Shown here one piece after another: positions 1-19,633 of a stretch of DNA of 19,633 nt. Every line of letters starts with the position of its first letter. Positions within the stretch are counted from its first letter, which is position 1. The position numbers and the translations under genes are program-made. The DNA lies in the NCBI GenBank assembly GCA_030453005.1, contig JAKDLE010000001.1:1-19633 (forward strand), in the 5' to 3' direction. Source of the stretch: Pseudonocardia sp. Its GTDB lineage: Bacteria; Actinomycetota; Actinomycetes; Mycobacteriales; Pseudonocardiaceae. The notes beneath the pieces were generated by a model. That model was given only the letters and a program-made list of their open reading frames with translations, did no database searches and was not told where the DNA came from.

Positions 1-1
1 G

Positions 2-1102: not shown

Positions 1103-3730
1103 ATGGTCTGCGATGGACACGGGCGGAGGTCGCGGGCGACGATGCGGATCCCTGGCAGCAAGACGGCGGTGCCGGAACTACCCCTCGAACACATCCCGCG
1201 GCTGGCGTTGCTAGGGCAGTTGGACCGCGCGGCTGCCGGGCAGATCGTCGTCGTGAGTGCCCCGCCCGGGTACGGCAAGACGCTGCTGCTCGCCGAGTGG
1301 GAACGCCGCAGTGGCGGTCCGGGCACGGCGTGGGTCAGCCTCGACCATGACGACGACGACCCACGCCGCTTCTGGGCGGCTGTGCTGGCGGCGCTCAGGG
1401 GCATGCCCGCACTGCCGTCGGACAGCGCGCTGCACCGGGTCGGCACCGCAGCCGTCGGGGACGGCGGCGACCTCGTCGACGAGCTGGCCGAAGCGCTCGA
1501 CGTCCTCGACCCGCCGATCCGACTGGTACTCGCCGATGTCCACGAGGGGACGGCGCGGGAGCCGCTGCGGGACCTCGCGCGGCTGGGCCGGCGTCGCCCC
1601 CGGGGTCTGCGGCTGGTGTTGTCGAGCCGGGTGGACCCGCCGCTCGCGCTGCCGCGGCTGCGGCTGGAGGGCCGGTTGCACGAGCTGCGCGCAGACCGGC
1701 TGCGGTTCGGCGTCGACGATGCCGCGGCGCTGCTGCAGGCGACCGGGCTCGACCTCACACCGGCACAGGTCGACCTCCTGCACCGGCGGACCGACGGCTG
1801 GGTGGCCGGACTGCGACTGGCCGCCCTCGCACTGCGGCGCTCCGACGACACCGACGCCTTCCTGGCCCACTTCTCCGGTGACGAGCGCTCGGTCGCCGAG
1901 TACCTGACCGGCGAGGTCCTCTCCGGCATGCCCCGGGACGCGCACGATCTCCTGCGTGCGGTCAGCGTGTGCTCCCGGCTGCCGGCCGCGCTCGCCGTCG
2001 AGCTGACCGGTCGTCCGGACGCGGGCGTGGTGCTCGAGGACCTGGGGCGCGAGACGGCGATGGTCGAGCGCACCGCCCACGGGGGGCACCGCCTGCACGC
2101 CCTGCTCCGGTCCTATCTCGTCGCCAACCTGAAGCATCGCCGCCCCGCAGCGCACCGTCGGCTGCAGGTGACGGCGGCCCGCTGGTGGGCCGACAATGGT
2201 GAGGCGGCGCACGCCCTGCGCCACGCCGAGCGGGCCGGTGACAGCGCGCTGCTCGCGGAGCTGCTGCGCCGATACGGCGTGCTCCTGCTGCTCAACGGCG
2301 AGCTCGAACCGCTGCGCCGTGGCCTGGCCGCAGTGGGGCCCGCCGGTCGCGCGGCGGACCCGTGGCTCGCGCTCATCGCGGCGATCACGCATCTCGGGGA
2401 GCGGGAACTGCCTGCCGCGGCAGCCGAGCTGGCACACGCGCGGCGGGCCTGGCCCGCGATACCCGACCCGGGCCTCGACGCGCTGCGCACCAGCGCAGAG
2501 CTCCTCGCCGAGGGCATGGGGCTCCCGGTCGTCGCCCAGCCGGCGACAACGACCGGACCTGGTTCGTCCGGGCCCGAGATGGTGGCGCTGCTGCACGTGA
2601 GCCGGGGCGTAGCGGGGCTCGCCGCCGGAGTCGACGGACTCGACGCCGCGCGGGCCGAGCTCGAGCTGGCCCTGGAGCTGGCCCGCCGCAACGAGCTGGG
2701 CTTCCTGGAGGTGCAGAGCCTGTCGCTGCTCGCGATGCTGGCGGGCGTGCGGGGCGACCATCGCGGGATGGTCGCGGCGGCGGAGGACGCCGTGGCCGCG
2801 GCGGCCGGCTGCGGCCGGCATCCGTCAGCATGGTCAGCGGGTGCGTCGGCCATGCTCGCCTACCACGAGCTGCTCGCCGGTGACCCGTCTGCGGCCCGCG
2901 CGCGCGCCGCGGGGTCCCTCGACGGCGCCGACCCGTTGCCGCCCGAGGCGGCCTACACGCTGCACGTCGTGCACGGCACCGCGCTCGCCGACCAGGGCGA
3001 GCGCGCCCGCGGCCTCGCCGAGACCCGGGCCGCCCGTGCTCATGTCGGCGACACGGGCGGGTCACCGGCGCAGCTCGCAGCGCTCGCGGTCCTCGAGCAC
3101 CGGACGGCTCTGCTGCACGGCAACCACGGGGCAACCGCCGAGGTCGCGCAGTGGCTGGAGCGGCGGGTCGGCCGCGTCGGCGAGGTCGTGCTGCTGCACG
3201 CCTGGACGGAGGCCGCTGCCGGGCGGCACGAGGCCGCCCGTACCGCGGTGGCGCCGCTGAGCTCCCGGGCGGTGCCGGCCCTGCTGCCACACACCGGGAT
3301 CGAGGTGCACCTCATCGAGGCCGAGGCCGCCCTGTCCGCAGGAGACCCTCGGGGGGGCTGGGCGGCCCTGGACGCGGCGCTCGCCGAAGGCGAGGTGGTC
3401 GACGTCGTCCGCCCGTTCGCGCTGGCCGGGCCACGCACCCGGGAGCTGCTGGCCACGCGATCGGCATCGAACGGGAACCGGCGCTTCGCCGCCCGCGTGG
3501 ACGCCGCACGTGCGGCGGTGCTCGCCGACGCCGCAAGCATGCTCAGTGAACGGGAGTTGGTCGTGCTCGAGCTGCTGCCGTCCCTGCTCAACGCCGGGGA
3601 GATCGCGGCCGAACTGACGGTGTCGGTCAACACGGTGAAGAGCCACATCCGCTCCATCTACGCCAAGCTCGCCGTGTCGACCCGACGTGACGCCGTGCAG
3701 CGCGCCCACGAGCGGGGCCTGCTGCCGTGA
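1103..3730 (+). CDS. MalT-like LuxR-family regulator with N-terminal P-loop NTPase
   Basis: This 875-residue protein has the full architecture of large ATP-binding LuxR (LAL/MalT) regulators. An N-terminal NTPase has Walker A APPGYGKT (about residues 53-60 from this start) and a Walker B-like strand RLVLADVHE. A winged-helix/TPR-like alpha-helical sensor region follows, and a C-terminal LuxR helix-turn-helix occupies the last 60 residues (SVNTVKSHIRSIYAKL). In the family, ATP and an effector drive oligomerisation and promoter activation. The start is uncertain. ATG 1103 has AGG at 1092-1094 and GGAG at 1097-1100. ATG 1142 (MRIPGSK) follows GGAGG at 1125-1129 and starts exactly where family homology begins, giving 862 residues. 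It is a tandem paralogue of the preceding gene. Its effector is unknown. Confidence 0.93.
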   Translation: MVCDGHGRRSRATMRIPGSKTAVPELPLEHIPRLALLGQLDRAAAGQIVVVSAPPGYGKTLLLAEWERRSGGPGTAWVSLDHDDDDPRRFWAAVLAALRGMPALPSDSALHRVGTAAVGDGGDLVDELAEALDVLDPPIRLVLADVHEGTAREPLRDLARLGRRRPRGLRLVLSSRVDPPLALPRLRLEGRLHELRADRLRFGVDDAAALLQATGLDLTPAQVDLLHRRTDGWVAGLRLAALALRRSDDTDAFLAHFSGDERSVAEYLTGEVLSGMPRDAHDLLRAVSVCSRLPAALAVELTGRPDAGVVLEDLGRETAMVERTAHGGHRLHALLRSYLVANLKHRRPAAHRRLQVTAARWWADNGEAAHALRHAERAGDSALLAELLRRYGVLLLLNGELEPLRRGLAAVGPAGRAADPWLALIAAITHLGERELPAAAAELAHARRAWPAIPDPGLDALRTSAELLAEGMGLPVVAQPATTTGPGSSGPEMVALLHVSRGVAGLAAGVDGLDAARAELELALELARRNELGFLEVQSLSLLAMLAGVRGDHRGMVAAAEDAVAAAAGCGRHPSAWSAGASAMLAYHELLAGDPSAARARAAGSLDGADPLPPEAAYTLHVVHGTALADQGERARGLAETRAARAHVGDTGGSPAQLAALAVLEHRTALLHGNHGATAEVAQWLERRVGRVGEVVLLHAWTEAAAGRHEAARTAVAPLSSRAVPALLPHTGIEVHLIEAEAALSAGDPRGGWAALDAALAEGEVVDVVRPFALAGPRTRELLATRSASNGNRRFAARVDAARAAVLADAASMLSERELVVLELLPSLLNAGEIAAELTVSVNTVKSHIRSIYAKLAVSTRRDAVQRAHERGLLP

Positions 3731-4708: not shown

Positions 4709-5084
4709 GGGGTACTCCTCGGGAGAGCCGGGCCCACTGCCCGGAATGGCGCCCAGGGTCGCGGCCCGCAGGCCACCCCGGCCTCATCCGATCCGAATGA
4801 ATGCGGGGCGAGGTCACCCGGCGGCGAGGTCCACGGGTTCGCGACACCTACGGGGTCGAGATCCACCGGGTCGAGGAAACCCAGCCGATGGCTGTTCGGT
4901 CATGCGCCGACAGCCGTGGTGTTCCGTTCGAGCGTGGGAGTCGCGTCGAGGGCTGCGTGTTCTCCCAGCCGGCCCATCACCGCGGCGGGGATCTTCAGCG
5001 CGGCGTCGACGCGTAACCTGGGCCGTGGGAGAACATCGGCGCAGGTCAGCGGGGTCCCTGGTCTGCGGGTTGCGTCGGACCGCC
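4709..5084. other. Stretch without a supported gene
   Basis: This 376-base interval lies between the sulfatase hairpin and the DUF7144 start. Open frames exist on both strands, but none has a convincing ribosome binding site plus recognisable protein. The part nearest 4709 must carry the DUF7144 promoter and its GAGGAG site. I see no repeat or RNA gene here. Confidence 0.6.
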
Positions 5085-5102
5085 TGCGCGGAATTCCGCG
5101 CA
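5085..5102 (-). terminator. 18-bp perfect palindrome just past the sulfatase stop
   Basis: The sequence TGCGCGGAATTCCGCGCA is a perfect palindrome that folds into a 7-bp GC-rich stem with an AATT tetraloop. It begins six bases beyond the arylsulfatase stop codon in the direction of transcription, which is a typical place for an intrinsic terminator or a 3'-end stabilising hairpin. No U-tract follows. Confidence 0.6.
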
Positions 5103-5108
5103 CCCGAC

Positions 5109-7466: not shown

Positions 7467-7474
7467 GACCTGAC

Positions 7475-7506
7475 CTCCTGTGTGCGAAAAGCAGACTCCT
7501 GTGTGC
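7475..7506. promoter_or_regulatory. Direct repeat GCACACAGGAG x2 at the sulfatase ribosome binding site
   Basis: Read on the minus strand, the 11-mer GCACACAGGAG occurs at 7506-7496 and again at 7485-7475, exactly 21 bases apart (two helical turns). The proximal copy contains the Shine-Dalgarno of the sulfatase. The arrangement fits a protein-binding operator or a duplicated ribosome-entry site. Confidence 0.45.
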
Positions 7507-7713
7507 TGCGACCGTCCCGTGGCCTTCCGGTGCCCGCATCACCCGGCACAGGGGACCGTCGACGGCGACGCCTGCTCAGCGGGGAGCGCTCCGACCCGTC
7601 CCCGCCCAGACCGCTGCGTCACGCGGCACACGTCGCTCACCGAGTCGGGGCGGCCGGGTGTACTCCTCACCTGTCCGGGGTGACGCGGACCCGGCTGCGA
7701 GTTGCTTGGCTGG

Positions 7714-7736
7714 CCTCGCATCGATGTGATGCGAGG
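7714..7736 (+). promoter_or_regulatory. Hairpin overlapping the Shine-Dalgarno of the 7744 gene
   Basis: CCTCGCATC (7714-7722) and GATGCGAGG (7728-7736) are perfect 9-bp inverted arms around a GATGT loop. The right arm runs into GAGGAGGA (7733-7740), the ribosome binding site for ATG 7744, so the folded mRNA would mask part of it. The same dyad could instead be a DNA operator. It lies in the divergent control region between the sulfatase and the plus-strand genes. Confidence 0.5.
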
Positions 7737-7743
7737 AGGAACG

Positions 7744-7824
7744 ATGACCGACCACGCACGTGCCGGGGCTGCGGCGATCCGAACGGCGGACGCCGTCGTG
7801 TCAACGGATCGGCACTCCCCATGA
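7744..7824 (+). CDS. Very short ORF (26 aa), possible leader peptide
   Basis: ATG 7744 follows GAGGAGGA at 7733-7740 with good spacing and encodes 26 residues beginning MTDHARAGAA. Its TGA stop overlaps the next ATG as ATGA at 7821-7824, the usual sign of translational coupling. The peptide has no recognisable family. It may be a leader that opens the downstream start, or the shortened relic of a longer gene. Confidence 0.4.
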   Translation: MTDHARAGAAAIRTADAVVSTDRHSP

Positions 7825-8057
7825 TCTGGCTGCTGCCGGCGTTCCCGGTCGCGTTGACGCTCCTGGCGGTGGGTCTGCACGGCCGGGCGACCGCGCTGTT
7901 CGGGGACGTCGTCCACCTGCACGCCCGGCCTCGTTGTTCGGTGTCGATACTTGCCCTCCACTCCGCCGCGCAACGGAACCGGTTCTCGCCCGCGCCCCGG
8001 CGGGACGGTCAGGAGGCCGGCCTGGTCACGCCGATCGCACCGCAGCCGAACCAGTAG
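7821..8057 (+). CDS. Small protein with one N-terminal membrane helix (78 aa)
   Basis: The start overlaps the preceding stop (ATGA). Residues 1-22 (beginning MIWLLPAFPVALTLLAVGL) form a likely single transmembrane helix. The remainder is basic and low-complexity, with no recognised domain. The N-terminus resembles that of the small protein at 15098, suggesting a common class of tiny actinobacterial membrane proteins. The tail may not be native sequence. It ends 32 bases before the HAD gene, so the two are probably in one transcript. Confidence 0.4.
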   Translation: MIWLLPAFPVALTLLAVGLHGRATALFGDVVHLHARPRCSVSILALHSAAQRNRFSPAPRRDGQEAGLVTPIAPQPNQ

Positions 8058-8089
8058 CGCTGCCGCGCAAACGCGAATGGAGCAGCCGA

Positions 8090-9004
8090 ATGGACACGAC
8101 GACCCTGCCGAGCTGGAACGACGGGCCCGCGCGCCGCGCGGTGCTGGAGTTCCTCGCGACGGTGACGGAGGCCGGTCCGGGCCACGTGCCGCCGGTGGAC
8201 CGCGTCGCCACGTTCGACAACGACGGCACATTGTGGTGCGAGCAGCCGCTGCCCCCGCAGTTCGACTTCGTCCTGCGTCGGTGGGCGGAGATGGCCGAGG
8301 CCGATCCGTCGAAGCGGCGCGAGCAGCCCTACCAGGCGGCCGTCGAGCGGGACGCGGACTGGCTGCGCCACTACTACGACCACATCCCGGAGCTGCTGCG
8401 GGGCCTGGCCCACGCTTTCGACGGCGCCACCCCCGAGCAGTTCGAGGCCATCGTGGCGCGCTTCTTCACCGACGTGCACCATCCCCGCTTCGGGCTGCCC
8501 TACGATCAGGTCGTCTACCAGCCCATGCGCGAGCTCCTCGAGCTGCTGGCCGCCAACGGGTTCCGCGTCTTCATCGCCTCCGGCGGGGGCCGCGACTTCA
8601 TGCGCGTCATCTCCGAGGCCACCTACGGTGTGCTCCGGGAACGGGTGATCGGCACGGCGCCGGACTACGAGTACCGCGACGGCACCCTGCACCGGCTGCC
8701 GACGCTGCTCGGCGGGGTCGACGACGGCCCGGGAAAGCCGGTGCACATCTTCCATCAGGTCGGACGCCGACCGTTGCTCGCCGGTGGCAACTCCGACGGC
8801 GACGTCGAGATGATGGAGTCCGCCCGCTTCGCCCTGCTGGTGCACCACGACGACGCCGACCGCGAGTACGCGTACGACGTCAAGGCCGAGCGCGCCCTCG
8901 ACGTCGCCGCGCGCGACGGGTGGACCGTCGTGAGCATGCGCGACGACTGGTCGACGGTCTTCCCCCAGCGGGTCCCGGTCAGGACAGCGGCCGAGGTCGG
9001 GTAG
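8090..9004 (+). CDS. HAD-superfamily phosphatase/hydrolase
   Basis: This 304-residue protein carries the HAD motifs in order. Motif I is TFDNDGTLW, with nucleophile Asp43 and Asp45. Motif II is the serine in FIASGGGRDFMR, and motif IV is GGNSDGDVEMM, with metal-binding Asp residues. A helical cap of about 100 residues lies between I and II, as in the C1-cap phosphoserine-phosphatase-like group (PF12710 type). It is expected to be a cytosolic Mg-dependent phosphomonoesterase; the substrate cannot be read from sequence. ATG 8090 has GGAG at 8079-8082, seven bases away; the frame is open further upstream but without a ribosome binding site. Its stop is only seven bases from the convergent FGE stop. 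Confidence 0.93.
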   Translation: MDTTTLPSWNDGPARRAVLEFLATVTEAGPGHVPPVDRVATFDNDGTLWCEQPLPPQFDFVLRRWAEMAEADPSKRREQPYQAAVERDADWLRHYYDHIPELLRGLAHAFDGATPEQFEAIVARFFTDVHHPRFGLPYDQVVYQPMRELLELLAANGFRVFIASGGGRDFMRVISEATYGVLRERVIGTAPDYEYRDGTLHRLPTLLGGVDDGPGKPVHIFHQVGRRPLLAGGNSDGDVEMMESARFALLVHHDDADREYAYDVKAERALDVAARDGWTVVSMRDDWSTVFPQRVPVRTAAEVG

Positions 9005-9011
9005 CGGGCCG

Positions 9012-9977
9012 TCACGCAGCGGCGTCGGCCGCCATGCGGAAGCCGATGTTCCCGGCGCTGCTGTCCGGGGAGTTCGCGCTGCGCGCGGCGCACCGGTAGC
9101 GCCAGCAGTAGGACTCCTGGCAGAGGTAGGAGCCGCCGCGCATGTTCCGCTGACCCGGGCGGGCGGGGCCGAACCGGTCGGCGCACCACTCCCACACGTT
9201 CCCGGTCGCGTTGTGCAGGCCGAAGCCGTTGGCCGGGAAGGCGTCGACCGGGGCGGTGCCGGCGTACCCGTCGTCCGCGGTGTCGTGCTCGGGGAAGCGG
9301 CCCTGGAAGACGTTCATCCGGTGCTCGCCGCCCGGGGTCAGCTCGTCACCCCACGGGAAGCGAGCTCCGTCCAGCCCGCCGCGGGCCGCGTACTCCCACT
9401 CGGCCTCGCTGGGCAGCCGCCCGCCCGCCCACCGGCAGTACGCCCGGGCGTCGAGCCACGACACGTGGACGACGGGATGGTCGCCCCGGCCGTCGACGTC
9501 GGAGGTGCCACCCTCGGGTCGGTGCCAGGAGGCCCCCGGCACCTGCCGCCACCACGGTGCGGCCGCGACTGCGCGGGTGGGCGGGAACCGGTCGGGCAGC
9601 AGCCCACCGAACACGAACGACCAGCCTTCCCGCTCCGCGGTGGTGTGGTAGCCGGTCGCCTCGACGAAGGCCGCGAAGTCGTCGTTGCGGACCGCGTGCG
9701 CGGCGACCCGGAATGCTGCGACGTGCACCGCCCGCGGCGGGCCTTCGCCGTCGGCGGGGTAGCGCTGCTCGGCCGATCCCATCTCGAACACCCCGCCGGG
9801 CAGGGCCAGCAACGGGGGACCGGGCGACCCGGACGCGGTGGCGGTCCAGCGCTCCTCGCGCACCACCGTGTCCGCGCCGCCGCGGGTCGCCGCGCCGCAG
9901 CACGCCGCCGCCGTGTCCCGCAGGTCCTCCGAGGCCGTCATGCACTGGAGCATCGCGACCCCGCCCGACGCCGGCAT
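9012..9977 (-). CDS. Formylglycine-generating enzyme (sulfatase maturase, SUMF1-type)
   Basis: This 321-residue protein oxidises the sulfatase CxPxR cysteine to formylglycine, using Cu and O2. The family features are the LPGGVFEMGS entry motif, HPVVHVSWLDARAYCRWAG, RLPSEAEWEYAARGG, TGNVWEWCAD and RGGSYLCQESYCWRYR. Cys286 and Cys291 correspond to the paired copper-binding cysteines of Streptomyces FGE. The C-terminus NIGFRMA is typical. There is no signal peptide, matching a cytosolic target such as the sulfatase at 5109-7466. ATG 9977 shares its A with the SulP stop (TGATG); a GTG at 9980 is an equal alternative. No good ribosome binding site precedes it, so it is probably translated by coupling to SulP. 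Confidence 0.97.
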   Translation of the reverse strand: MPASGGVAMLQCMTASEDLRDTAAACCGAATRGGADTVVREERWTATASGSPGPPLLALPGGVFEMGSAEQRYPADGEGPPRAVHVAAFRVAAHAVRNDDFAAFVEATGYHTTAEREGWSFVFGGLLPDRFPPTRAVAAAPWWRQVPGASWHRPEGGTSDVDGRGDHPVVHVSWLDARAYCRWAGGRLPSEAEWEYAARGGLDGARFPWGDELTPGGEHRMNVFQGRFPEHDTADDGYAGTAPVDAFPANGFGLHNATGNVWEWCADRFGPARPGQRNMRGGSYLCQESYCWRYRCAARSANSPDSSAGNIGFRMAADAAA

Positions 9978-11800
9978 CACCCGTCGGGGATGGGTGCGCC
10001 CGCTGAACCGCCGGTGGTGAGCCCGGTGTCCGCGGGCGGCCTGCCCTCGGCGAGCGGCTCAGCGGGGTCCGTCGCGACCGGTTCGGTCCGGCTCCGACGC
10101 ACGAAGTCGGCCACGGCGTCGCGGATGCGCAGGGGGAACCCGTCGGCGCCGATCCGCTCCTCGAGCTCCATCTGGCGCAGGGTGGTGCGCAGCGACGTGC
10201 GCACCCGGGCCAGCACGAGCCGGACCCCCCGGTCGTCGAGCTGGTCCAGGAGCTCGTCGAGCGCCTCGGCCCCGGTGATGTCCATGTCGACGACCCCCTC
10301 GGCGTCGATGACGACTTCGACGGCCGGTGGCTCCGACTCGTCGACGAGGCGGAGCACCTCGTCGCGCAGGACCGCGGCGTTGGCGAAGAACAGCGGCGCG
10401 TCGAACCGGTAGACGAGCAGGCCCGGCACGGTGTCGGTGCCGTCGAAGTTGGTCGCGCTCCGCCACGCCGTGCGGCCCGCCACCCGTCCGAGTACGGCGG
10501 TCGGGGGCAGCACCGCGCGCCGCAGCACCTCGAGCAGCGACACCACGACGCCCACCGCGATGCCCGGCAGCACACCGACGACCAGCACGCCCGCCGCGGT
10601 GACCGCCGCGAGGGCGAAGTCGCTGCGGCGCACCCGCCACAGCCTGCGGAAGGCGGCGACGTCGACCATCCGGGCCGCCGCGACGAGCACGACCGCGCCG
10701 AGCGCCGCCTGCGGCAGGAACCGGAACACCGGCGTCAGCACCAGGAGGGTGACGGCCGTGAGTGCGGCCGCGATGAGGTTCGCCAGCTGGGACCGGGCCG
10801 GGGTGTCGGCCACGATGAAGCTGCGTGAGTCGCTCGCGTTGGGCGGCAGGCCCTGCAGCAGCCCGGATCCGACGGACGCGGCGGCCAGGCCGAGGAACTC
10901 GCGCGGGCCCGAGACCTGCTCGCGGTCGCGGCGAGCCAGGGCGCTGGCGGTGAGCATGCTGCTGGCGAACACGAGCAGCGCGATGCTCGCGCCCGCGCCG
11001 AGCAGGTCGACCACGTCGCCCGCCTCGACGCTCGGCAGCGACGGGACGGGGATGCCGGCCGGGACCTCCCCGATCACCGGCACCCGGTCGTCCCAGCCGA
11101 GGACGGCCACGAGGACGGTGGCCCCCGCGACCGCGAGCAGGATGCCCGGCACGCCCGGGGCCCACCGGCGCACCACGACGACGATCAGCACGGTCATCGA
11201 CCCGATCAGCAAGGCCCGCAGGTTCGTCGTCGGGAGGCCGGCGGCCAGCTCGGCCAGCTTGCGCCACCAGTCATCGGCGGGAGTCGGGATCGCGAAGATC
11301 TTGCCGAGCTGGCTCACGCCGATCACGACCGCCGAGCCGGCGAGGTAGCCGGCCAGCACGGGGGTCGAGAGCAGCCGGGACACCACGGCGAGCCGCAACA
11401 CCGCGCCCAGCAGCAGGAAACCGGCCGCGACCAGGCAGAGCAGCGCGGCCAGCCCCGACGCCCGCTCCGGTACCCCGGCCGCCAGGCCGCCGATGTAGGC
11501 CGCGGTGACGATCGCGGTCGACGACTCGGGCCCGACGTGCAGGTACCGGCTGCTGCCCAGCAGCGGGTAGAGGAGCAGGGCACCGATCGCGGTGTAGAGA
11601 CCGGTGACGGGAGGCAGGCCGGCCAGCTCGCCGTAGGCCAGGCCCTGGGGTACCAGCACCGCCCACACGGCGAGACCCGCGAGCAGGTCGGGCCGTATCC
11701 AGGACCGCCGGTACCGCATCAGGTCGGCCGCCCCGGGAAGCAGGCGGCGCAGGTGGCCGGGCTGCGGCACCGGTTCGGGTGCAGGCTCCGCTGCGGCCAC
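9977..11800 (-). CDS. SulP-family anion (sulfate) transporter with STAS domain
   Basis: This 607-residue membrane protein has the SulP signature PQGLAYGELAGLPPVTGLYT (residues 51-70). About 10-14 hydrophobic segments follow, then a cytosolic C-terminal STAS domain containing VVIDAEGVVDMDITGAEAL. Family members move sulfate, bicarbonate or other anions; this neighbourhood favours sulfate. GTG 11800 is chosen because GGGGGAG at 11808-11814 sits seven bases upstream. GTG 11806, overlapping the channel stop as GTGA, is an alternative with too short a spacer. A longer open frame to 13363 exists but runs antisense or out of frame through other genes. It lies between the channel and FGE genes in one operon. 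Confidence 0.95.
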   Translation of the reverse strand: MAAAEPAPEPVPQPGHLRRLLPGAADLMRYRRSWIRPDLLAGLAVWAVLVPQGLAYGELAGLPPVTGLYTAIGALLLYPLLGSSRYLHVGPESSTAIVTAAYIGGLAAGVPERASGLAALLCLVAAGFLLLGAVLRLAVVSRLLSTPVLAGYLAGSAVVIGVSQLGKIFAIPTPADDWWRKLAELAAGLPTTNLRALLIGSMTVLIVVVVRRWAPGVPGILLAVAGATVLVAVLGWDDRVPVIGEVPAGIPVPSLPSVEAGDVVDLLGAGASIALLVFASSMLTASALARRDREQVSGPREFLGLAAASVGSGLLQGLPPNASDSRSFIVADTPARSQLANLIAAALTAVTLLVLTPVFRFLPQAALGAVVLVAAARMVDVAAFRRLWRVRRSDFALAAVTAAGVLVVGVLPGIAVGVVVSLLEVLRRAVLPPTAVLGRVAGRTAWRSATNFDGTDTVPGLLVYRFDAPLFFANAAVLRDEVLRLVDESEPPAVEVVIDAEGVVDMDITGAEALDELLDQLDDRGVRLVLARVRTSLRTTLRQMELEERIGADGFPLRIRDAVADFVRRSRTEPVATDPAEPLAEGRPPADTGLTTGGSAGAPIPDG

Positions 11801-11802
11801 GT

Positions 11803-12384
11803 TCACGCTCCCCCTGCACGATCGCGGGTCTCCGCCGCCTGCGGACCGTCGCGCTCGCGCCGCTGGACCGCCACCTGCACCGCGCCGAGCACGATCTTCG
11901 CGATCAGCCCGACCACCACCAGGCCCAGGACCATCTGGATCATCGTGGCGATGCGTGCCACGTCGCTGCGCGGGGCGATGTCCCCGAAGCCGACGGTGGC
12001 GAAGACGGTGACGGTGAAGTAGAGCGCGTCGGTCCGGCCGAGTACCTCGCTGAATCCGTCCGGGTCGTTGCTCGACATCACGGCGTAGGTCGCGGCGAAC
12101 AGCACGACGAACGTCGGCACGGCGATCGCGACCGACTGGATCGCGCGCAGCCGCGGGACGTCGGAGGCGAGGATCGCCCGCACCTGCCAGATGATGACCA
12201 CGGCCAGGACCACCAGCCCGAGCACCAGCCCGACCCCGGTGCCGACGTCGAGCTGCCCGTCCAACGGGGCCAAGTAGTACACGACCACCAGCAGCGCTGC
12301 CGACACTGCGGCCCGAAGCAGTGCCAGGGTCACCGTGCGCCGCCGGCCCGACGGGCTCAGCTCGTCGTAGCGCTTCCTCGTCAT
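11803..12384 (-). CDS. Potassium-channel-family membrane protein (Ion_trans_2 type)
   Basis: This 193-residue protein has two N-terminal hydrophobic segments (about 21-41 and 50-70). A third helix at 81-104 is followed by a pore loop with selectivity filter TVGFGD (130-135) and a last helix at 147-170. The filter is the canonical K+ channel signature. There is no RCK or cyclic-nucleotide domain; the tail is short and charged. It is the first gene of a minus-strand operon and its stop directly abuts the SulP start. The ATG 12384 ribosome binding site is weak. A potassium pathway alongside an anion transporter could balance charge; that is inference. Confidence 0.92.
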   Translation of the reverse strand: MTRKRYDELSPSGRRRTVTLALLRAAVSAALLVVVYYLAPLDGQLDVGTGVGLVLGLVVLAVVIIWQVRAILASDVPRLRAIQSVAIAVPTFVVLFAATYAVMSSNDPDGFSEVLGRTDALYFTVTVFATVGFGDIAPRSDVARIATMIQMVLGLVVVGLIAKIVLGAVQVAVQRRERDGPQAAETRDRAGGA

Positions 12385-12625
12385 CAGGCCTGACCCGCCT
12401 TGCCCGGTGCCGCCGCCGAACCGCCGACGAGCGTCCCCGTGACGACCATCGTGATTCCTCTCCTGGGCCGGCCAGGCCGGGCTGGGTCCGTCCGTCCGGG
12501 ACGTTCACCGAACCGCCGGGCCGCGTCGTGTGCACCACCCGAGCGGGGTGACCCTCCCGCGCGCCGTGCGGTCCGACATCCGTCACACTGGCGGCGCCGC
12601 GGACGCTCGCGGAGGGAGGGCGCCG

Positions 12626-13129
12626 ATGGAACTCGTCCCGCGTGACGACCCGCGTGTCGTCGCGCTGTCCGCGGCGTTGGAGCCCTACGCGTGGACCCGA
12701 ACCGCCCCGGAGATGCTGGCCCGCCGCGCGTTGGGTGTCCTGGACCGGCACTGGCTCCTCGGGCAGCTGCCCGGTCCGCAGCCCGCAGTGCGCCTCGACG
12801 ACACCGAACCTGCGGATCCGTCCGACGAGAGGGTGACGGCCCTGGTGGAGGTCCTCTATCCGCTGCGCCGGCGGGCGCTGACGCGCGGGGCGTTGTGCCG
12901 CCAGCTCGTCAGCGGCCTGATAGCGTGGGGTGTGCAGCGTCGGCTGGCCGACATCGAGACTCGCCTGGCTGCTCGACAGCGGCGCCTGACGCCGGCGCCG
13001 CACACCCGCCCCGCTCACTGGCGGGACATGGCCATCCGCATCTCGGCCTCGCTGTCGACGATGAGCTCGCCGCTCAGGTCGACGGTCACGCTGCGCAGCA
13101 GCCCGGTGAACCGGAACGGGGACCGGTAG
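12626..13129 (+). CDS. Hypothetical protein (167 aa), 3' end overlapping a sulfatase remnant
   Basis: ATG 12626 follows a strong GGAGGGAGGG (12611-12620) with five-base spacing, so initiation is credible. The product is Arg/Leu-rich, predicted mostly helical, with ETRLAARQRRL near residue 115, and has no membrane segment. I do not recognise it. The last 38 or so codons (from about 13015) run antisense to the sulfatase C-terminal remnant and have a different composition. The original stop may therefore have been lost in the rearrangement that brought in the remnant. Confidence 0.6.
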   Translation: MELVPRDDPRVVALSAALEPYAWTRTAPEMLARRALGVLDRHWLLGQLPGPQPAVRLDDTEPADPSDERVTALVEVLYPLRRRALTRGALCRQLVSGLIAWGVQRRLADIETRLAARQRRLTPAPHTRPAHWRDMAIRISASLSTMSSPLRSTVTLRSSPVNRNGDR

Positions 13130-13401
13130 TCGGCCACGATCGGCGCTCCGGGGTTGGCCCCGCACGACAGCCCGCCCGGGTTGAAGATGATCGGTACGGT
13201 CACGGGCAGATCCGCCTGTGCGACGAGCGCGTCGTCGACGTAGAGCTGTGCCCGGCCCGGAGACCCCTTGCCCTGCGTGAAGTCCGGTGCGCCGGTGGGT
13301 TCGAACCCGAACCGGAGCCGGTGCTTGCCCGCGGTCAGGGGATCCGGCGCGGACACCGTGCACACCGCGCGGCTGAGGTAGTTGTGGGCGTAGTGCAGCC
13401 G
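13015..13401 (-). pseudogene. Orphan C-terminal fragment of a second arylsulfatase
   Basis: About 128 codons ending at the stop 13015 resemble the beta-rich C-terminal region of the intact sulfatase at 5109-7466. Shared features include the YxxNY/YVYNF start, an LRFGFEPTG versus LLSAGFDKTG strand, AQLYVDD versus LSLYYGD, PFRFTG versus PWAFTG, and VTVDLSGELIVD versus LAVDVSGQPYID. The catalytic domain with the CxPxR motif is absent and no start codon or ribosome binding site precedes the homologous part. It is therefore a truncated relic. The reading frame is still open and clean, which suggests recent loss. Confidence 0.8.
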
Positions 13402-13638
13402 CTGGTCCGAGTCCCCGGCCCTCCTGCCCGAGCTGCCGACGGTCGGCTCGCTCCTGCTCGAAAGAAGCACCGTGGTGCGCTCATGGTCGTCACCCGAGCC
13501 GGGTGGCCTTCCCCGAGTTGTCCGCGCAACCCGGCACACCCGGAACGGGGGATGCCCGTCTGCGGGAGCGGGTGCACGGTTGCGGGGTCGAGGGCCCAGC
13601 GCAGTCGCCATCCGGGCCCGCGGAGGAGATGAGGACCG

Positions 13639-13842
13639 ATGGGAACGAGGCGGTACGAGTTCCGGGTGGACGGCAGGCTGTCGGAGGAGGCCCGCAGCGC
13701 CTTCGCCGACATGCGGATCACCGAGCCACCCCTGCAGACCGTCATCGACGGCGAGGTGCTGGACGAGTCGCACCTGCACGGAATCATCGCGCAGTTCCAG
13801 ACGCTGGGCGTCACCGTGGTATCCGTGCATCCGGTTCCCTGA
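13639..13842 (+). CDS. Small protein of unknown function, paralogue of 3847-4068
   Basis: This 67-residue protein starts at ATG 13639 after GGAGGAGATGAGG. It aligns end to end with the protein at 3847 (RYEFRVDGRLSE.AR.AF, PLQTVIDG, HLHGIIAQFQTLG, VTVVSVHPV), ending shortly after the VVSV strand. The second copy confirms that both are real genes. It lies between the sulfatase remnant and the nitrilase gene. The family was not recognised; a small binding or regulatory role is only a guess. Confidence 0.82.
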   Translation: MGTRRYEFRVDGRLSEEARSAFADMRITEPPLQTVIDGEVLDESHLHGIIAQFQTLGVTVVSVHPVP

Positions 13843-13931
13843 CACGCCCCGATCCGGCTCAGCCCCTTGCCCGGGCGCAGGGACGGCCATCGAGGTGCGA
13901 CGTCGGGACGAGTGTGTGAACGTATCGCCGG

Positions 13932-14927
13932 TCAGCCGACGTTGCGCGTGACAGCGCGGGACTCCCCCAGCCGGCGGTATATCTCGTGGAAGTCGATCGC
14001 GTAGTCGAAGTCGTCGCGCTCGCGTTCTCGGACACCACGGATGTCGAGGTTGTGGACGATCAGCAGCTCCTCCTCGATGTGCGAGGCCTGGATCAGCTTC
14101 ATCCCGGAGGGCGCCCAGATCCCCGAGCCGCCCCAGAAGGTCGCACCGCTGATCGGGTGACGCCCCACCGCGTTGCAGGCGATGACCCACACCTGGTTGG
14201 TCGCGGCCGCGGCCGGTAGGACCTTGTCCCAGAGGTCTCCGTAGTAGCTGGTCGTGCGCACGTTGAGCCCGGGGTAGTCGCGCACCGCGGCCGCGCGCCA
14301 CGAGGCGAGCTCGATGATCGCGTCGACTCCGTCTCCGAGGCAGTACTCGCGTAGGAGGTCACCGAACAGAACGTCGTAGCAGGTGGTGAAGCCGAAGCGC
14401 CCGCGCGGCCCCTCGAGCACGAGGCGATCGTCCCTGCCGCTGACCGTGTACTCCTTCTCGATGCCGGGGAGGAAGACCTTGTCGTAGGTGTTCTCGGTGC
14501 CCAGGTAGTCGTCACGGTGGGGACCACCGAGGACGAACGTGCGGTTGAACATCTGGCCCGCCGGCCCGCGGGACAGGCCGTTGAGGACGATGCCCCGCAG
14601 TGTGTCGTCGAGCAATGGCGCCAGCTCGCCGTCGAGCCAGTCGCGGTGGTTCTCGACGGCCGAGGCCTCCATGTAGTGCCGGCAGCGCTCCTCGTCCTCC
14701 CAGAAGTAGCCTGACAGGCACAACTCGGGGAAGATCGCGAAGTTGACACCGCGCTCCTTGAGGATCCGGACGACGCGCAGGATCTTCGCTTTGTTGGCCT
14801 CCACGTCGGGGACGGCGGCGCTGATGTTGGCGAGCCCGACACTCGCGCCGTCCCCGTCGAAGAAGGTGCGTTCGACCACCGGAATCCCGTCCACGACGTC
14901 GACTGCCGCGCGTTCCGGGTCCACCAT
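13932..14927 (-). CDS. Carbon-nitrogen hydrolase (nitrilase superfamily amidohydrolase)
   Basis: This 331-residue enzyme has the nitrilase-superfamily triad: Glu68 in FAIFPELCLSG, Lys150 in NTYDKVFLPG and Cys183 in GFTTCYDVLFGDL. It should hydrolyse an amide or carbamoyl bond in the cytosol; aliphatic amidase, N-carbamoylase or beta-ureidopropionase-like activity are possible. ATG 14927 is fixed by GAGGAGG six bases upstream. An in-frame start further upstream (14948) would include that site and is rejected. It stands alone on the minus strand, divergent from the gene at 15098. A role in the sulfate-ester locus is not shown. Confidence 0.93.
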   Translation of the reverse strand: MVDPERAAVDVVDGIPVVERTFFDGDGASVGLANISAAVPDVEANKAKILRVVRILKERGVNFAIFPELCLSGYFWEDEERCRHYMEASAVENHRDWLDGELAPLLDDTLRGIVLNGLSRGPAGQMFNRTFVLGGPHRDDYLGTENTYDKVFLPGIEKEYTVSGRDDRLVLEGPRGRFGFTTCYDVLFGDLLREYCLGDGVDAIIELASWRAAAVRDYPGLNVRTTSYYGDLWDKVLPAAAATNQVWVIACNAVGRHPISGATFWGGSGIWAPSGMKLIQASHIEEELLIVHNLDIRGVRERERDDFDYAIDFHEIYRRLGESRAVTRNVG

Positions 14928-14996
14928 CGGTCGCCTCCTCGGACGCACGGAGCCGTGTCGGTGCAGCCGGATTCTCTACGCGGTGCGGCGGTGTGA

Positions 14997-15053
14997 CATC
15001 ACCCCGCGGGGGGGATCCCGGCCGCGGGCGTGGATCCCCCTGCCCGGGTGATG
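14997..15053. repeat. 57-base imperfect inverted repeat in the divergent control region
   Basis: Two nested perfect arms share one centre at 15025: CATCACCC (14997-15004) with GGGTGATG (15046-15053), and GGGGGATCC (15010-15018) with GGATCCCCC (15032-15040). Together they form a long hairpin with a small internal loop. It lies between the divergent starts of the nitrilase (14927) and the 15098 gene, so an operator is likely. An RNA structure in the 15098 leader is also possible. Confidence 0.55.
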
Positions 15054-15097
15054 CATGGCCCGAGCGGCCTCACGACGATGTGGGCCAGGAGGTGCCC

Positions 15098-15478
15098 ATG
15101 GCTCTTTTCGCGATCCTGCTGCCGGTGCTGGTGGGAGTGGTCTTGCTGGTCATGGAGCGGCTGGAGGCGAGGCTGCTCGGCGTCACACCGCTCGTGAACG
15201 CACGGTGGCACGGTCAGGCCGGACCGCTACCGGCCGCCGAGCAACAGGGCGAGCGCACGCGCCGCGTCGCCGGTGTTGCCTGCGTTCACCTCCGCACGCA
15301 GCCCCCCCTCGTCGCCCCGTTCGAGGAGAATCCCGGCCAGCGCCTCTGCTGCACCGGGCTCTCCGGCGTCGGCCCGGGCCCGCAGCTCGGACACCGCGTC
15401 GGGATCGCCGCATCCGACCAGCTGCTCGATCAGCCGCTCGCCGGCACACCGGTCGCCGTTGTCGGCGCGCGTCCGTAG
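15098..15478 (+). CDS. Small membrane protein, 3' end doubtful
   Basis: ATG 15098 has a textbook AGGAGG (15087-15092) five bases upstream. Residues 1-19 (MALFAILLPVLVGVVLLVM) form a single membrane helix followed by ERLEARLLG, like the 40-70-residue single-span proteins common in actinobacteria. The frame stays open to 15478 (126 residues), but from 15227 it is antisense to the large NTPase gene and reads as low-quality protein. The native protein was probably shorter and its original end has been lost or shifted. Confidence 0.5.
   Translation: MALFAILLPVLVGVVLLVMERLEARLLGVTPLVNARWHGQAGPLPAAEQQGERTRRVAGVACVHLRTQPPLVAPFEENPGQRLCCTGLSGVGPGPQLGHRVGIAASDQLLDQPLAGTPVAVVGARP
15211..15226 (-). terminator. 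Weak hairpin adjoining the NTPase stop
   Basis: CGGTC (15211-15215) and GACCG (15222-15226) form a 5-bp stem with a six-base loop directly after the stop codon of the repeat NTPase. The position fits a terminator but the stem is short. Confidence 0.25.
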
Positions 15479-18070
15479 CTCGGCCATCGCCATCGGGTCG
15501 CCGCGTCCGGCGAGCAGTTCCGCCAGGTGTTCCCCCGCGTACCAGTCGCCGCCGTCGGCTCGGACGCGCAGCTCTGCCTCGGCATCGCGGTCCTGCCGTC
15601 CGGCCAGCAGCTCCACCAGCCGGGCCCCGGCGAAGCGGTCGCCGAGGGCGGAGCGCGCCCGTAGCTCGTCGACCGCCTTCCGGTCGCCACGGCCGAAGAG
15701 CAGCCGGACCAGCATCTCCGCTGCGTAACCATCGCCGGCATCGGTGCGTGTACGCAGGTCGGCGACCGCACTGTCATCGCCCAGGTCGAAGAGCGCCCGG
15801 ACCAGCTTCTCGGCTGCGTAGCCGCTACCGGCCGCGGCGAAGGCCCGCAGGTCCGCAACCGCCGCCGCATCGCCGGGGTCGACCCGCTCGACGAGCACGT
15901 CGACGGCCTCGGGGTCGCCGCCGTGGGCGCGGGCGCGCACCAGCTCGATCACCACCGGATCGCCCATCGCCACCAGGAGCTCGGTCGCGTAGCCGTCTCC
16001 GGACCGGGCGATGGCGCGCAGCTCCACCACGGCGTCGTGATCGCCGCGCTCGACGAGTAGCTCGACCAGGGCCCCTGCCGCATACCAGTCACCGGTACTC
16101 GCCCGATCGCGCAGCTCGTGCAGTGACTCCGCATCGCCCCGCTCGCACAGGAGCATGGACAGCTGCTCCGCCGCACCCCGGTCGCCGGCGCGAGCCCGTT
16201 CCCGAAGGTCCGTCGCCGCGTCCTCGTCCCCCCGCTGGAACAGCAGCCGGACCAGGAGCCGTGCCGCGCTGCGGTCGCCGTCGGCGGCCCGCTCTCGCAG
16301 CTCGGCCGCCGCGTCCTCGTCCCCCCGCTGAAACAGGATCCCGATCAGGTGGTCGGCGCTGTACCGGTCGCCACCGTCGGCGAGGGTCCTCAGCTCGGCG
16401 ACATCCGCCGGACCTCCCCGCTCCGACAGCACCTCGACCAACCTCGTCGCCGCGTGGACGTCACCGTCAGCGGCCCGCTCCCGCAGCTCGGCGACCGCTT
16501 CTGCGTCGCGCCACCCGGCCAGCAGCTCCACCAGCAGCGTCGACGCGTGACGGTCCCCGCTGTCGGCGCGGACGCGAAGCTCGCCGACCGCCTCCGGGCC
16601 ACCGTCGGCGAACAGCAGCTCGGCCAGTCGGCGCGCCGCTTCGTCGTCTCCGGCGCCCGCTCGATCACGCAGCTGCGCTCGGGCCTCTGATCCGCCCAGC
16701 TGGAACAGCAGTTCGGCGAGGCGAACCGCTGAGTCCCCGTCCCCGGCGTCGGCCCGGCCCCGCAGCAGCTCCACCGCTATCGGATCGTTCTGCTCGATGA
16801 GCAGGTCGGCCGCGTCGCGACAACCGTCCCCGGCCCGCGCCCGCAGCTCAGCCACCGCTTCGGGATCACCACGTGAGTGCAGCAGCTCGGCAAGTCGGCG
16901 GGACGCCCTGCCGTCCCCGGCATCGGCTCGCCTTCGCAACAGCGGCAGGGCCCACCCCTGCAGGCCCCGGACGAGAACGGAACCGACGACGCGGTCGGAG
17001 TCTCCACCGTCCTCGACTCCGCGGGTGACGGCCGACCACAGGCTGTCGGGAACCGGTTGCCGACGGCGGTCGTCGCGGGCGTGCTCGGCCAGGTAGCTGT
17101 GGAGCACGACGGCGTCGTCCAGGCCGCCGGCAGGTGCGAGGGCGCGGACGCCGAGGACCGGCCGCATGGCGTGGGGAAGGGCCCGGCTGACCGTCGTCGC
17201 GTCGTGCTGTGGTGGCAGGTAGTCACTGGCCGCCTCGGCCAGCAGGGCGGGGCGGAGCGGGGACCAGAACCCGACGCGGTGGGCGTCCATCGCCGCGGTG
17301 AGCAGCGCGTGGGCATCCGCCCCGTACCGTCCCTCCTCGTAGTGCCGCACCAGATTCGGCCCGCCCGTCAGGTACTGGACGACGTGCGCACCGTCGTCGG
17401 CGGTGAGCGCGGCGCGCCACCGGGGATCCCGCGCAGCGGCGCGCCCGACATCGTCGGGTGTCTCGAAGTCCTCGCACAGCGCAACCGTGACTCCTGGCCG
17501 CGCCAGCAGCTCATGGATCGCCTGGCCACGATCATCGTCCGCCGACCCCCGGATATCGTGCGACCACATGCCGCCGATCACCACCCGCTTCGGTCCCGGC
17601 CGAGGGTCTGCGTCGAGCATGAGGTGCAGGGCGCGAGCGACGTCAGCACCTCGACGGCCGTGGAGGAACCGGTGGGCATCGTCCAGCCACAGGACGGCCC
17701 CGGGCTCCGGGTCAAGCAGGGCGAGGAGGTCACGATCGTCGGCCGGCCGCACCACCGGACGGCCGGGCAGGACGGCACGCAGCGCCTCGTAGCAGGCTCG
17801 GGACTTGCCCGTCGAGGAGCCACCCAGCAGGAGCAGCACCGTGTCTCCCCGGCCGGTGCGCAGCACCGAGCGGAGGTGGTCGTCGTGGGCTCGCTGCACG
17901 TACTCGGTGAGCTGCGGCAGGCCGATCGCCCCGGAGACCGGACGGACGGCCTCGTGCACGCCCAAATGACGGATCGGGTCGACGTCGTCGATCGTCGGAG
18001 CCGTTCGCCCGCGGGGGTTCCCGTCCCATACTGGTCGGGAACCAGTCGGCGACATGCGCAGACGCACCAC
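15227..18070 (-). CDS. P-loop NTPase fused to 31-residue helical repeats (STAND-like)
   Basis: This 947-residue protein has an N-terminal segment with HLGVHEAV and LPQLTEYVQR, then a P-loop domain. Walker A is GGSSTGKS (83-90) and Walker B VLWLDD (126-131). A helical region follows to about 385, then about 18 repeats of 31 residues to the C-terminus. This layout matches signal-transducing STAND-type ATPases, in which the repeats sense a ligand or invader and the NTPase switches state. No separate effector domain is visible. GTG 18070 has GGAGG seven bases upstream; GTG 18100 or ATG 18055 are alternatives. It is flanked by relics, which suits an accessory region. The related actinobacterial proteins I recall are uncharacterised. 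Confidence 0.85.
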   Translation of the reverse strand: MVRLRMSPTGSRPVWDGNPRGRTAPTIDDVDPIRHLGVHEAVRPVSGAIGLPQLTEYVQRAHDDHLRSVLRTGRGDTVLLLLGGSSTGKSRACYEALRAVLPGRPVVRPADDRDLLALLDPEPGAVLWLDDAHRFLHGRRGADVARALHLMLDADPRPGPKRVVIGGMWSHDIRGSADDDRGQAIHELLARPGVTVALCEDFETPDDVGRAAARDPRWRAALTADDGAHVVQYLTGGPNLVRHYEEGRYGADAHALLTAAMDAHRVGFWSPLRPALLAEAASDYLPPQHDATTVSRALPHAMRPVLGVRALAPAGGLDDAVVLHSYLAEHARDDRRRQPVPDSLWSAVTRGVEDGGDSDRVVGSVLVRGLQGWALPLLRRRADAGDGRASRRLAELLHSRGDPEAVAELRARAGDGCRDAADLLIEQNDPIAVELLRGRADAGDGDSAVRLAELLFQLGGSEARAQLRDRAGAGDDEAARRLAELLFADGGPEAVGELRVRADSGDRHASTLLVELLAGWRDAEAVAELRERAADGDVHAATRLVEVLSERGGPADVAELRTLADGGDRYSADHLIGILFQRGDEDAAAELRERAADGDRSAARLLVRLLFQRGDEDAATDLRERARAGDRGAAEQLSMLLCERGDAESLHELRDRASTGDWYAAGALVELLVERGDHDAVVELRAIARSGDGYATELLVAMGDPVVIELVRARAHGGDPEAVDVLVERVDPGDAAAVADLRAFAAAGSGYAAEKLVRALFDLGDDSAVADLRTRTDAGDGYAAEMLVRLLFGRGDRKAVDELRARSALGDRFAGARLVELLAGRQDRDAEAELRVRADGGDWYAGEHLAELLAGRGDPMAMAELRTRADNGDRCAGERLIEQLVGCGDPDAVSELRARADAGEPGAAEALAGILLERGDEGGLRAEVNAGNTGDAARALALLLGGR
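15230..16909 (-). repeat. Tandem array of about 18 coding repeats, 93 bp each
   Basis: The protein shows a strict 31-residue period made of two short helices, AAxxLVxLLxxRGD and AVxELRxRAxxGD. Most units are exactly 31 residues; units 1, 2, 11 and 12 are 30, 28, 27 and 30. A partial unit and a LALLLGG cap end the array. The period is echoed in DNA: the tract from 16215 recurs at 16308, 93 bases later, with one mismatch in about 28. The fold is probably a Sel1/TPR-like solenoid. Confidence 0.9.
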
Positions 18071-18339
18071 CTTCCCACCTCCAGCAGTCTCGAGGTCCAC
18101 TCTGCGATGGCGGCACAGTTCCGGCGCCGCCCGCCGCGGGTGAACTCTCTCCGAGGCGTCGACCCGGGTTCCGCAGCTGATGTTGAGCCCGGACCTTCAC
18201 CAGCAGGTCCGCCTGGCAGTGGGCCAGCGACCGATCCGCCCCGAAGCAGATGCTCAGTCCGTCGTCGACGGTGACCGCGCATGGCGTGGTCACGGACATG
18301 AGCGGTTCGTCCGTGACATGCGGTGAGCCGGACCCCGGG

Positions 18340-18605
18340 CTACCGGTCGGCGGCGCTGCGATGCTCGACCCAGGCGATGACGCTGTCGGACATCCGGGTA
18401 TCGGAGATGGTGTCGATCTCGCGGACCCCGGTCGGGCTGGTCACGTCGATCCCGGTGAGGTAGCGGCCGATGACCGGCCCGTCGCGCTCTCCAGGATGGA
18501 GTGCAGGTTCGGGTCGGAGGGGTCCAGCAGCATGATCCCGCGCCCGGCCATCCCGTCGGTTGGTTTCACCACCGCCTTGCCCCACTCCCGCGTCACGGCG
18601 CGCCA
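18340..18605 (-). pseudogene. Remnant of a glutathione-synthetase-like ATP-grasp gene
   Basis: In one frame, about 18602-18490, the stretch WGKAVVKPTDGMAGRGIMLL followed by DPSDPNLHSILE matches the ATP-grasp lysine and glycine-rich loop region of prokaryotic GshB. In the next frame, 18480-18340, GRYLTGIDVTSPTGVREID matches the C-terminal GshB segment with the conserved NVTSPT-like motif. In an intact enzyme these are separated by about 100 residues, so an internal deletion with frameshift has fused them. The N-terminal domain is also missing. No function is expected. Confidence 0.75.
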
Positions 18606-18726
18606 GCAGCCGTCGTGCAGCGCCGCCGGACGCACCCGCACCGGCGTGCAGACCGCCGTGGCCCTGGCCTCGCGCACGCCGAGAGCGCCCGGACGGGCTG
18701 ACTCGGACCCGGAGCGGGGCTCTCGG

Positions 18727-19288
18727 TCAACTACCGCCGGCCCAACTCTCGAGCACGGCCAGCTCCGGCAGGTCGGCCGCAAGGACGTGATCCTCGTCGA
18801 TGGTCGCGCGCGTGCCCGGCACCGGACGGATCGCCGACGAGCCAGATCTCGCCGGTGGTGCCGTCCAGCGTGACCAGGTCGCCGGGGGTGATCGTGTATC
18901 GCCCATCGGCGGTCCGGGCTCCACCCGCACCGATGATCAGTGCGTCGACACCGACCACCGTGGGCAGACCCCAGCCCCGCGCCACGACCGCGGCGTGGCT
19001 GACGAGCCCGCCGGTCCCGGTGACGATGCCCACCGACACCGCCATCCCAGGGACGTCCTCGGGGATGGTCTCCGGCCGGATGAGCACGATCTCGTCGTTC
19101 TCGTCGCAGTCGGCGGCCTCATCCGAGCTGAAGACGGCCTTGCCGGTCACGCGGCCGGGCGAGGCGCAGAGTCCGCAGGCGATCGCCCCACCGCGCTGCT
19201 GGGTGGTGACAGCGTCGAGCACCGCCTGCCGCGCGGTGGCGCCGACCTCCGCGTCCACCCGTTCCACGGCCTGCTCGCGAGTGAACCG
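18727..19288 (-). pseudogene. Remnant PEP-utilising phosphohistidine domain (PPDK-like)
   Basis: From about 19288 the frame reads FTREQAVERVD, then ASPGRVTGKAVFSSDEA, LIRPETIPEDVPGM and GTGGLVSHAAVVARGWGLP. The histidine in SHAAVVA is the phosphorylated residue of PEP-utilising enzymes such as pyruvate phosphate dikinase. Near 18815-18835 the coding frame shifts; the next frame continues as TIDEDHVLAADLPELAVLE to a stop at 18727. The N-terminal nucleotide-binding domain and PEP/pyruvate barrel are absent, and an IS3-like element begins at the truncated end. It is a broken gene piece. A stand-alone swivelling domain seems unlikely given the frameshift. Confidence 0.75.
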
Positions 19289-19332
19289 CCCCGGGTTTCG
19301 TGGAGGCTCTGAACCCACGAGAAGGTGGATCA

Positions 19333-19633
19333 GTACCAGCTCCCCGGAAGTACCCCAACGATCTGCGTGAGCGTGCGCAGCGTCTGGTCGCGGAAGCGAT
19401 GACGGAGGATCCGTCGTTGTCTCCTAACGCGGCGGTCAAACGGATCGGTCCGCGGGTCGGGATCGTGCCCGACACCCTGCGTGGCTGGGTCAAGCAGACC
19501 CGCATCGATACCGGCCAGGCGCCCGGGACCACGACCGGTGACGCAGCGACGATCAAACGGCTTGAGGCCGAGGTTCGTGACCCTGCTGGCCAATTCGTTC
19601 GGGCCGAGCTGAGAGGCCCGGGCCGGGGGTGGC
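19333..19633 (+). mobile_element. IS3-family transposase OrfA, degenerate and cut by window end
   Basis: The frame from 19333 encodes a helix-turn-helix OrfA: RKYPNDLRERAQRLV, then EDPSLSPNAAVKRIGPRVG, PDTLRGWVKQ and GTTTGDAATIKRLEAEVR. The usual start position is GTA (19333) although GAAGGTGG precedes it, so the ATG/GTG has apparently mutated. After EVR the usual leucine-zipper ELRRANEIL is replaced by DPAGQFVRAELRG, indicating a small deletion. The frame is still open at the window edge, so OrfB may lie beyond. The left end probably lies between 19289 and 19320, interrupting the PPDK-like remnant. Confidence 0.8.

Follow-up and report, generated by a model that had tools for sequence, protein, structure and literature searches.

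Gene and domain layout

We analysed a 19,633-nucleotide stretch of DNA from Pseudonocardia sp. (contig JAKDLE010000001.1 of assembly GCA_030453005.1, positions 1 to 19,633; hereafter the window), whose minus strand encodes a protein in which a predicted STAND-type NTPase is followed by a long helical solenoid. The gene lies in an open reading frame running from 18100 to 15227 on that strand and is laid out as follows.

15227..18070, minus strand: STAND NTPase-solenoid gene, 947 amino acids, GTG start (comparison with protein P0001)
17981..18070, minus strand: short N-terminal extension of 30 amino acids without a recognisable domain (Pfam, alignment)
16940..17980, minus strand: STAND module with AAA+ core, helical part and winged-helix-like part (AlphaFold, VIA-align; the model covers 16921-18001)
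17801..17824, minus strand: Walker A, GGSSTGKS, residues 83-90 (alignment)
17678..17695, minus strand: Walker B, VLWLDD, residues 126-131 (alignment)
17090..17101, minus strand: HSYL, residues 324-327, at the place of the family's conserved ADYL (alignment)
15302..16939, minus strand: 18-unit alpha solenoid, residues 378-923 (self-comparison, unit division, Pfam, PDB search)
15572..16114, minus strand: units 10-15 of the solenoid, in register with stand-alone same-genus solenoids (comparison, 58-59% identity)
15230..15301, minus strand: C-terminal half unit or cap, 24 amino acids (unit division)

Translation probably begins with the GTG at 18070, giving a protein of 947 amino acids, because P0001, a metagenome protein with 85% identity to the window protein over the N-terminal 420 residues, begins at the same position. 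The frame is supported by 303 identities to P0001 among 350 NTPase positions and by 81-97% identity per unit in the array.

Only about 30 residues precede the NTPase, and the effector or signalling domain that is usual, if not universal, in STAND proteins has no counterpart here. When the window protein was searched against Pfam at E up to 1, the sole match to pass its cut-off was HEAT_2; no effector domain, no N-terminal match and no NTPase match was found. NCBIfam gave no family match for the protein, and PADLOC-DB 2.0.0 gave 0 families at E up to 1. The original prediction, made from the letters of the window alone, had seen no effector domain, and this stands. A truncated effector directly upstream was considered and found unlikely, as the six reading frames of 18071-19633 had no match to TIR or trypsin profiles; they gave one weak blast match, to the N-terminal extension of the relative at locus L038 (E 0.022).

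The NTPase module

The AlphaFold model of the NTPase (pLDDT 93.1, pTM 0.89) shows an AAA+ core with helical and winged-helix-like parts. Among the 50 PDB matches listed for it, those aligned as far as residue 360 were 6mfv, 8bob, 3sfz and five SAMD9 entries. The label STAND-like holds because of this arrangement and because the listed matches that align well to the domain end are STAND-type; judged by its model, the NTPase is of the STAND type, an AAA+ core followed by helical and winged-helix-like parts. A STAND-like P-loop NTPase is what the original prediction had proposed, with structure prediction of residues 1-385 as the way to check it, and the intact Walker A, the modelled arrangement over 16921-18001 and the alignments to the domain end all agree with it. 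The module may work as an NTP-dependent oligomerisation switch.

Residues G88 and K89 of Walker A are present in 121 of 121 aligned NTPases, and Walker B keeps its acidic residues (VLWLDD against the family consensus VlWLdE). The winged-helix motif ADYL, which we take to resemble the MHD motif of NLR proteins, has its Asp in 96% of the same 121 domains; the window protein has Ser at this position, as has P0001 by reading, while P0002 reads Asn.

Sequence libraries place the module less readily. The NB-ARC and NACHT Pfam models matched neither the window protein (E up to 1) nor were among the 22 families obtained from 60 NTPase domains (E up to 0.1). The nSTAND3 family (PF20720) matched 10 of these 60 domains weakly, with a best E of 0.0064, and the window's domain was not among them. 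Comparison with hhalign gave 81% and 62% for nSTAND3, using single sequences in one run and an nSTAND3 profile of two sequences (L149, L088) in the other. Solved relatives were also sought by sequence and none emerged, since the family profile returned three chance-level PDB matches, none of them STAND, with a best E of 0.46.

Among known systems, PDB 6mfv, presumably PH0952, is a STAND protein with a TPR sensor; 272 of its residues align across model residues 11-360 and it likewise has a helical-repeat sensor, but identity in the aligned part is 14%. For the MalT/LuxR-type STAND regulators (PDB 8bob), 284 residues align across residues 11-360 and a LuxR-type gene lies in the window, whereas the window protein lacks a GerE domain and the profile probability is about 20%. 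Structural relatives of the window NTPase can be transcription regulators, MalT being the example; sequestration of MalT by MalY is reported (PMC10427625). Avs5 is reported as an anti-phage nSTAND3 protein with Sel1/TPR repeats and a Sir2 effector, and its authors remark on a similarity to SAMD9 (PMC12931631). The window protein resembles Avs5 in its tripartite plan and helical-repeat C-terminus, and SAMD9 aligns along the whole NTPase model; however, the window protein has neither Sir2 nor another effector and no PADLOC match, and nSTAND3 reaches at best only the E-value given above. Kaur et al. 2020 (PMC7159879) treat conflict systems that, as far as the consulted sections go, share with relatives of the window protein the TIR, trypsin, EAD1 and Trypco2 associations and the repeats, but the window protein has none of those domains and those sections do not describe its NTPase family.

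The solenoid array

Divided by hand, the array falls into 18 contiguous units and a closing half unit of 24 residues. Fourteen of the units are 31 residues long; the other four measure 27 (twice), 28 and 30. Compared with itself at a lag of 31, the C-terminal part has an identity of 0.434, against a highest value of 0.166 in 500 residue shuffles (lags 20-69). The 18-unit, 31-residue helical solenoid of the original prediction is therefore confirmed, including the count, with 14 of the 18 units having exactly the stated length. The 31-residue units share a mean mutual identity of 50%, while matching units of the window protein and P0001 reach 81-97%, from which it follows that the array did not expand recently.

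It had also been suggested that the short period might mark a distinct repeat class, and this is not supported. HEAT_2 (Pfam PF13646) matches the window array with 36.3 bits against a gathering score of 27.7, and the array alone drew four matches from PDB sequences at E up to 1; three are named alphaRep and the fourth is bGFP-A, which we take to be an alphaRep as well. AlphaRep is a 31-residue HEAT-like scaffold. The likeness to designed alphaRep proteins is qualified by the weak E-values of those matches (0.014-0.46) and by the relatives, whose best lags are mostly 28 or 32. Searched with a 36-member family profile, the repeat region matched 67 PDB sequences, with a designed PPR best (7.2e-11), followed by TPR and Sel1, and alphaRep also present. 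TPR_19 occurs in 14 of the 36 aligned family proteins, while Sel1 and TPR Pfam models gave no match for the window protein at E up to 1. Among 120 relatives the best lag was 32 in 42, 28 in 37, 36 in 5, 35 in 2 and 31 in one (P0001), with 29 unclear and 4 too short. These family-wide matches and lags weaken a pure HEAT label; as compared by sequence, the window array is probably a HEAT/alphaRep-like helical solenoid and not clearly a new repeat class.

Family and distribution

A protein search with the NTPase region, in which 8000 candidates were scored, found 46 proteins. Reference genomes, searched with one conserved peptide pattern, gave 135 encoding stretches, of which the best 79 loci were kept; going by their titles, all are from Actinomycetes. 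Within the window's genus, 7 of 62 genomes have an NTPase match, counting its own and partial matches. Relatives occur in 55 of 72,556 plasmid records and in none of 50,697 phage records, and a scan of viral contigs gave one. These counts speak against a phage origin.

The domain in front of the NTPase varies. In the 36 aligned proteins it is TIR in eight and trypsin in three. The 72 N-terminal extensions of the named loci, read stop to stop and so possibly including untranslated DNA, most commonly contain a helix-turn-helix (HTH) domain (HTH_31 in 21 and HTH_3 in 13, overlapping sets), and otherwise alpha/beta hydrolase (4), TIR (3), HNH (1) and EAD1 (1). On a tree of 121 NTPase domains, built by FastTree alone and with N-terminal labels resting partly on purpose-built profiles, the N-terminal class must have changed no fewer than 21 times, with 8 origins of the effector-less class; leaving out 8 database-protein rows of class "none", which are possible contig-end truncations, gives 17 changes and 4 effector-less origins. 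The window protein pairs with P0001, and the two are sister to P0003 and L031 (support 99 for all four), whose N-termini are HTH-like by reading. By these comparisons the family is an unnamed actinobacterial one whose front domain has often been exchanged, scattered across Actinomycetes and their plasmids. A literature search of titles and abstract openings found no publication naming this NTPase family, although one may exist.

In L112 (G017; 7330-10319), a family member appears by reading to be interrupted by transposase-like genes.

Neighbours of the relatives

Genes around the relatives were called with a simple codon-usage script that missed some, such as the family gene of L272; it picked up a family gene in 75 of 83 surveyed sources. 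No recurrent partner was seen at most of the surveyed loci, and the neighbours of NTPase relatives vary widely. The picture is different for the 10 named loci whose family member is effector-less, that is, with fewer than 60 residues ahead of the NTPase: nine have a conserved neighbour, and the exception, L084, has none of the neighbours given next. At the six Streptomyces loci, the gene immediately upstream is of STAS type; in five of them it overlaps the family gene by 8-14 bases, and in the sixth the two are 94 bases apart (Pfam STAS for L067, the other loci assigned by similarity to L067). At the three Paractinoplanes loci, a gene for 197-198 amino acids without a Pfam match follows after 10 bases, then an AAA-HerA gene and then a patatin-like protein; the AAA-HerA protein of L044 matches PADLOC mad8 (E 7.8e-23). 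STAS-type neighbours also occur at L057 and L083, where N-terminal extensions are present.

These neighbours merit description in their own right. The 197-amino-acid, AAA-HerA (mad8) and patatin-like set directly after the effector-less member at L044:9805-14384, seen also at L039 and L045 and partly at L061 and L088, is operon-like and possibly represents an undescribed defence operon. The STAS-type genes at L064:6134-8029, L067:7151-8002 and relatives overlap the start of the effector-less Streptomyces genes, and upstream of them several loci have a small protein without a Pfam match that by reading contains a membrane segment. A protein of about 157-160 amino acids precedes the family gene at L048, L050, L060 and L077 (gene at -1) and at L273:8613-9083; those of L060 and L273 have no Pfam match, and the one of L273 is alike by reading only. 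At L114:5018-5992, a bSEFIR gene (PADLOC E 4e-68) is located downstream of a family member whose N-terminus reads as hydrophobic. An Mrr-nSTAND3 gene lies near the family member of L088, and in the window's own genus a trypsin-NTPase-TPR family protein stands beside Trypco2 (L271) and a PNP-NB-ARC gene about 3.5 kb from a family member (L272). It is because of these neighbours (bSEFIR, Mrr-nSTAND3, Trypco2, PNP-NB-ARC) that the family has the flavour of conflict systems as Kaur et al. 2020 use the term.

The window and same-genus loci

About 1.6 kb of sequence lies upstream of the STAND gene before the 19.6-kb contig ends. Its other features are these.

1142..3730, plus strand: LuxR-type regulator (GerE, with AAA_16 below cut-off; Pfam), also in L108, L109, L110 and L270
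4259..4708, minus strand: DUF7144 protein, also in L108 and L270
9977..11806, minus strand: SulP-type transporter with STAS domain, also in L108
13932..14948, minus strand: carbon-nitrogen hydrolase gene, the nearest same-strand gene downstream of the STAND gene, about 280 bp away; a possible but unsupported partner
18731..19267, minus strand: PEP-utilising-enzyme mobile-domain fragment (debris)

Glutathione-synthetase-like and transposase-like pieces upstream were assigned by reading alone. The original prediction had set the gene beside debris, as defence genes often are. The PEP-utilising-enzyme fragment bears out the debris, but the defence-island reading is weakened by the lack of a PADLOC match and by the genes in common with sister loci: seven gene types with L108 of G004 (LuxR-type regulator, DUF7144, SulP, ion channel, two small proteins and solenoid) and three each with L109, L110 and L270. 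The LuxR/DUF7144/SulP cluster is not general, since it concerns four of 62 genus genomes.

Those four genomes (G004, G021, G033 and G064; the window's own genome set aside) each encode a stand-alone solenoid of about 180-206 amino acids and six units, with 58-59% identity to units 10-15 and in register with them; the NTPase part is absent in all four. In three of the four, the solenoid gene lies 0.5-0.75 kb upstream of the LuxR-type gene and codirectional with it; in L108 it is not directly upstream. The stand-alone form may derive from a protein that shed its NTPase, or the window gene may be the product of a fusion.

Genes for a sulfatase (5109-7466), a formylglycine-generating enzyme (9012-9977) and the SulP transporter (9977-11806) lie near one another, and a Rhodococcus koreensis plasmid contains a stretch with 81% identity to the sulfatase DNA. 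The two small proteins encoded at 3802-4068 and 13639-13842 have no Pfam match and appear to be related to each other; L108 has a counterpart of the latter with 77% identity.

Discussion

We lean, by a modest degree, towards the window protein being an effector-less STAND NTPase receptor with a solenoid sensor arm that acts in trans, in a conflict-type or a regulatory setting. The predicted and compared part of this reading is the P-loop AAA+ core with helical and winged-helix-like parts and the long HEAT/alphaRep-like solenoid, and action in trans is proposed because the protein carries no fused output domain. In the resting state, the nucleotide-bound module would be held shut and the solenoid packed against it. 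Binding of a proteinaceous trigger along the solenoid would free the module, NTP binding would then drive oligomerisation, and the assembled NTPase would act in trans on another protein, either an effector or a regulator. That the protein may work through an unseen partner had been proposed from the outset and is plausible by analogy with the nine effector-less loci that have conserved neighbours; no tight partner of the STAND gene is, however, visible in the window.

The protein could instead be a regulatory STAND of a stress-type cluster, whose solenoid, alone in the relatives and STAND-joined here, binds or controls a LuxR/MalT-type regulator as inhibitory partners hold MalT. The codirectional solenoid genes of the sister species, the window's own LuxR-type gene, DUF7144 and pair of small proteins, and the MalY precedent (PMC10427625) all suggest it. 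Yet the window's LuxR gene is about 11.5 kb from the STAND gene on the opposite strand, the L108 solenoid gene is not directly upstream of LuxR, the four stand-alone genes have no NTPase part and the NTPase relatives have many different neighbours, which leaves this explanation doubtful, though the strongest of the rivals. We think it unlikely that the lineage lost an N-terminal HTH or effector and left a remnant that acts as a decoy, restrains fused paralogues or is on its way to decay: the HTH-like N-termini of its sisters P0003 and L031, the debris upstream and the Ser at the conserved Asp of the winged-helix motif would fit, whereas P0001 keeps the same short N-terminus with NTPase and array conserved unit by unit, the Walker motifs and frame are intact, and the upstream DNA gave no TIR or trypsin profile match and one weak blast match, to L038. 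An operon in which the downstream carbon-nitrogen hydrolase is the output enzyme is very improbable. The hydrolase is on the same strand and nearest downstream, but beyond the gap of about 280 bp, a comparison with 1010 called proteins (79 named loci, the window and L113-L115) matched only the window's own hydrolase; as a family partner it is disfavoured, being near no other family member examined.

Returning to the receptor reading, the immunity or cell-fate switch of the original prediction gains from the TIR, trypsin and EAD1 architectures and the trypsin-NTPase-TPR protein beside Trypco2, and loses from the weakened defence-island reading of the window. The family probably serves invader sensing or cell-fate signalling, and its role may be immune or regulatory.

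The architecture is NLR-like, with often exchanged N-termini, although no model dedicated to the NTPase turned up in Pfam, which was also run on relatives, or in NCBIfam and PADLOC, for which the window protein was the sole query. The effector-less members with conserved neighbours (STAS; the 197-amino-acid gene, HerA/mad8 and patatin) make an effector in trans directly testable, and the same type of solenoid stands alone near LuxR-type regulators in sister species. A bolder design, to which we give little credence at present, is that of a shared sensor: an effector-free STAND switch would recruit unfused outputs in trans through its solenoid (STAS factors, a HerA/patatin operon or, here, a LuxR-type STAND regulator), and the stand-alone solenoids of sister species would be sensor-only or inhibitor subunits for the same partner. 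If true, a single locus would link NLR-like sensing with the control of transcription and stress.
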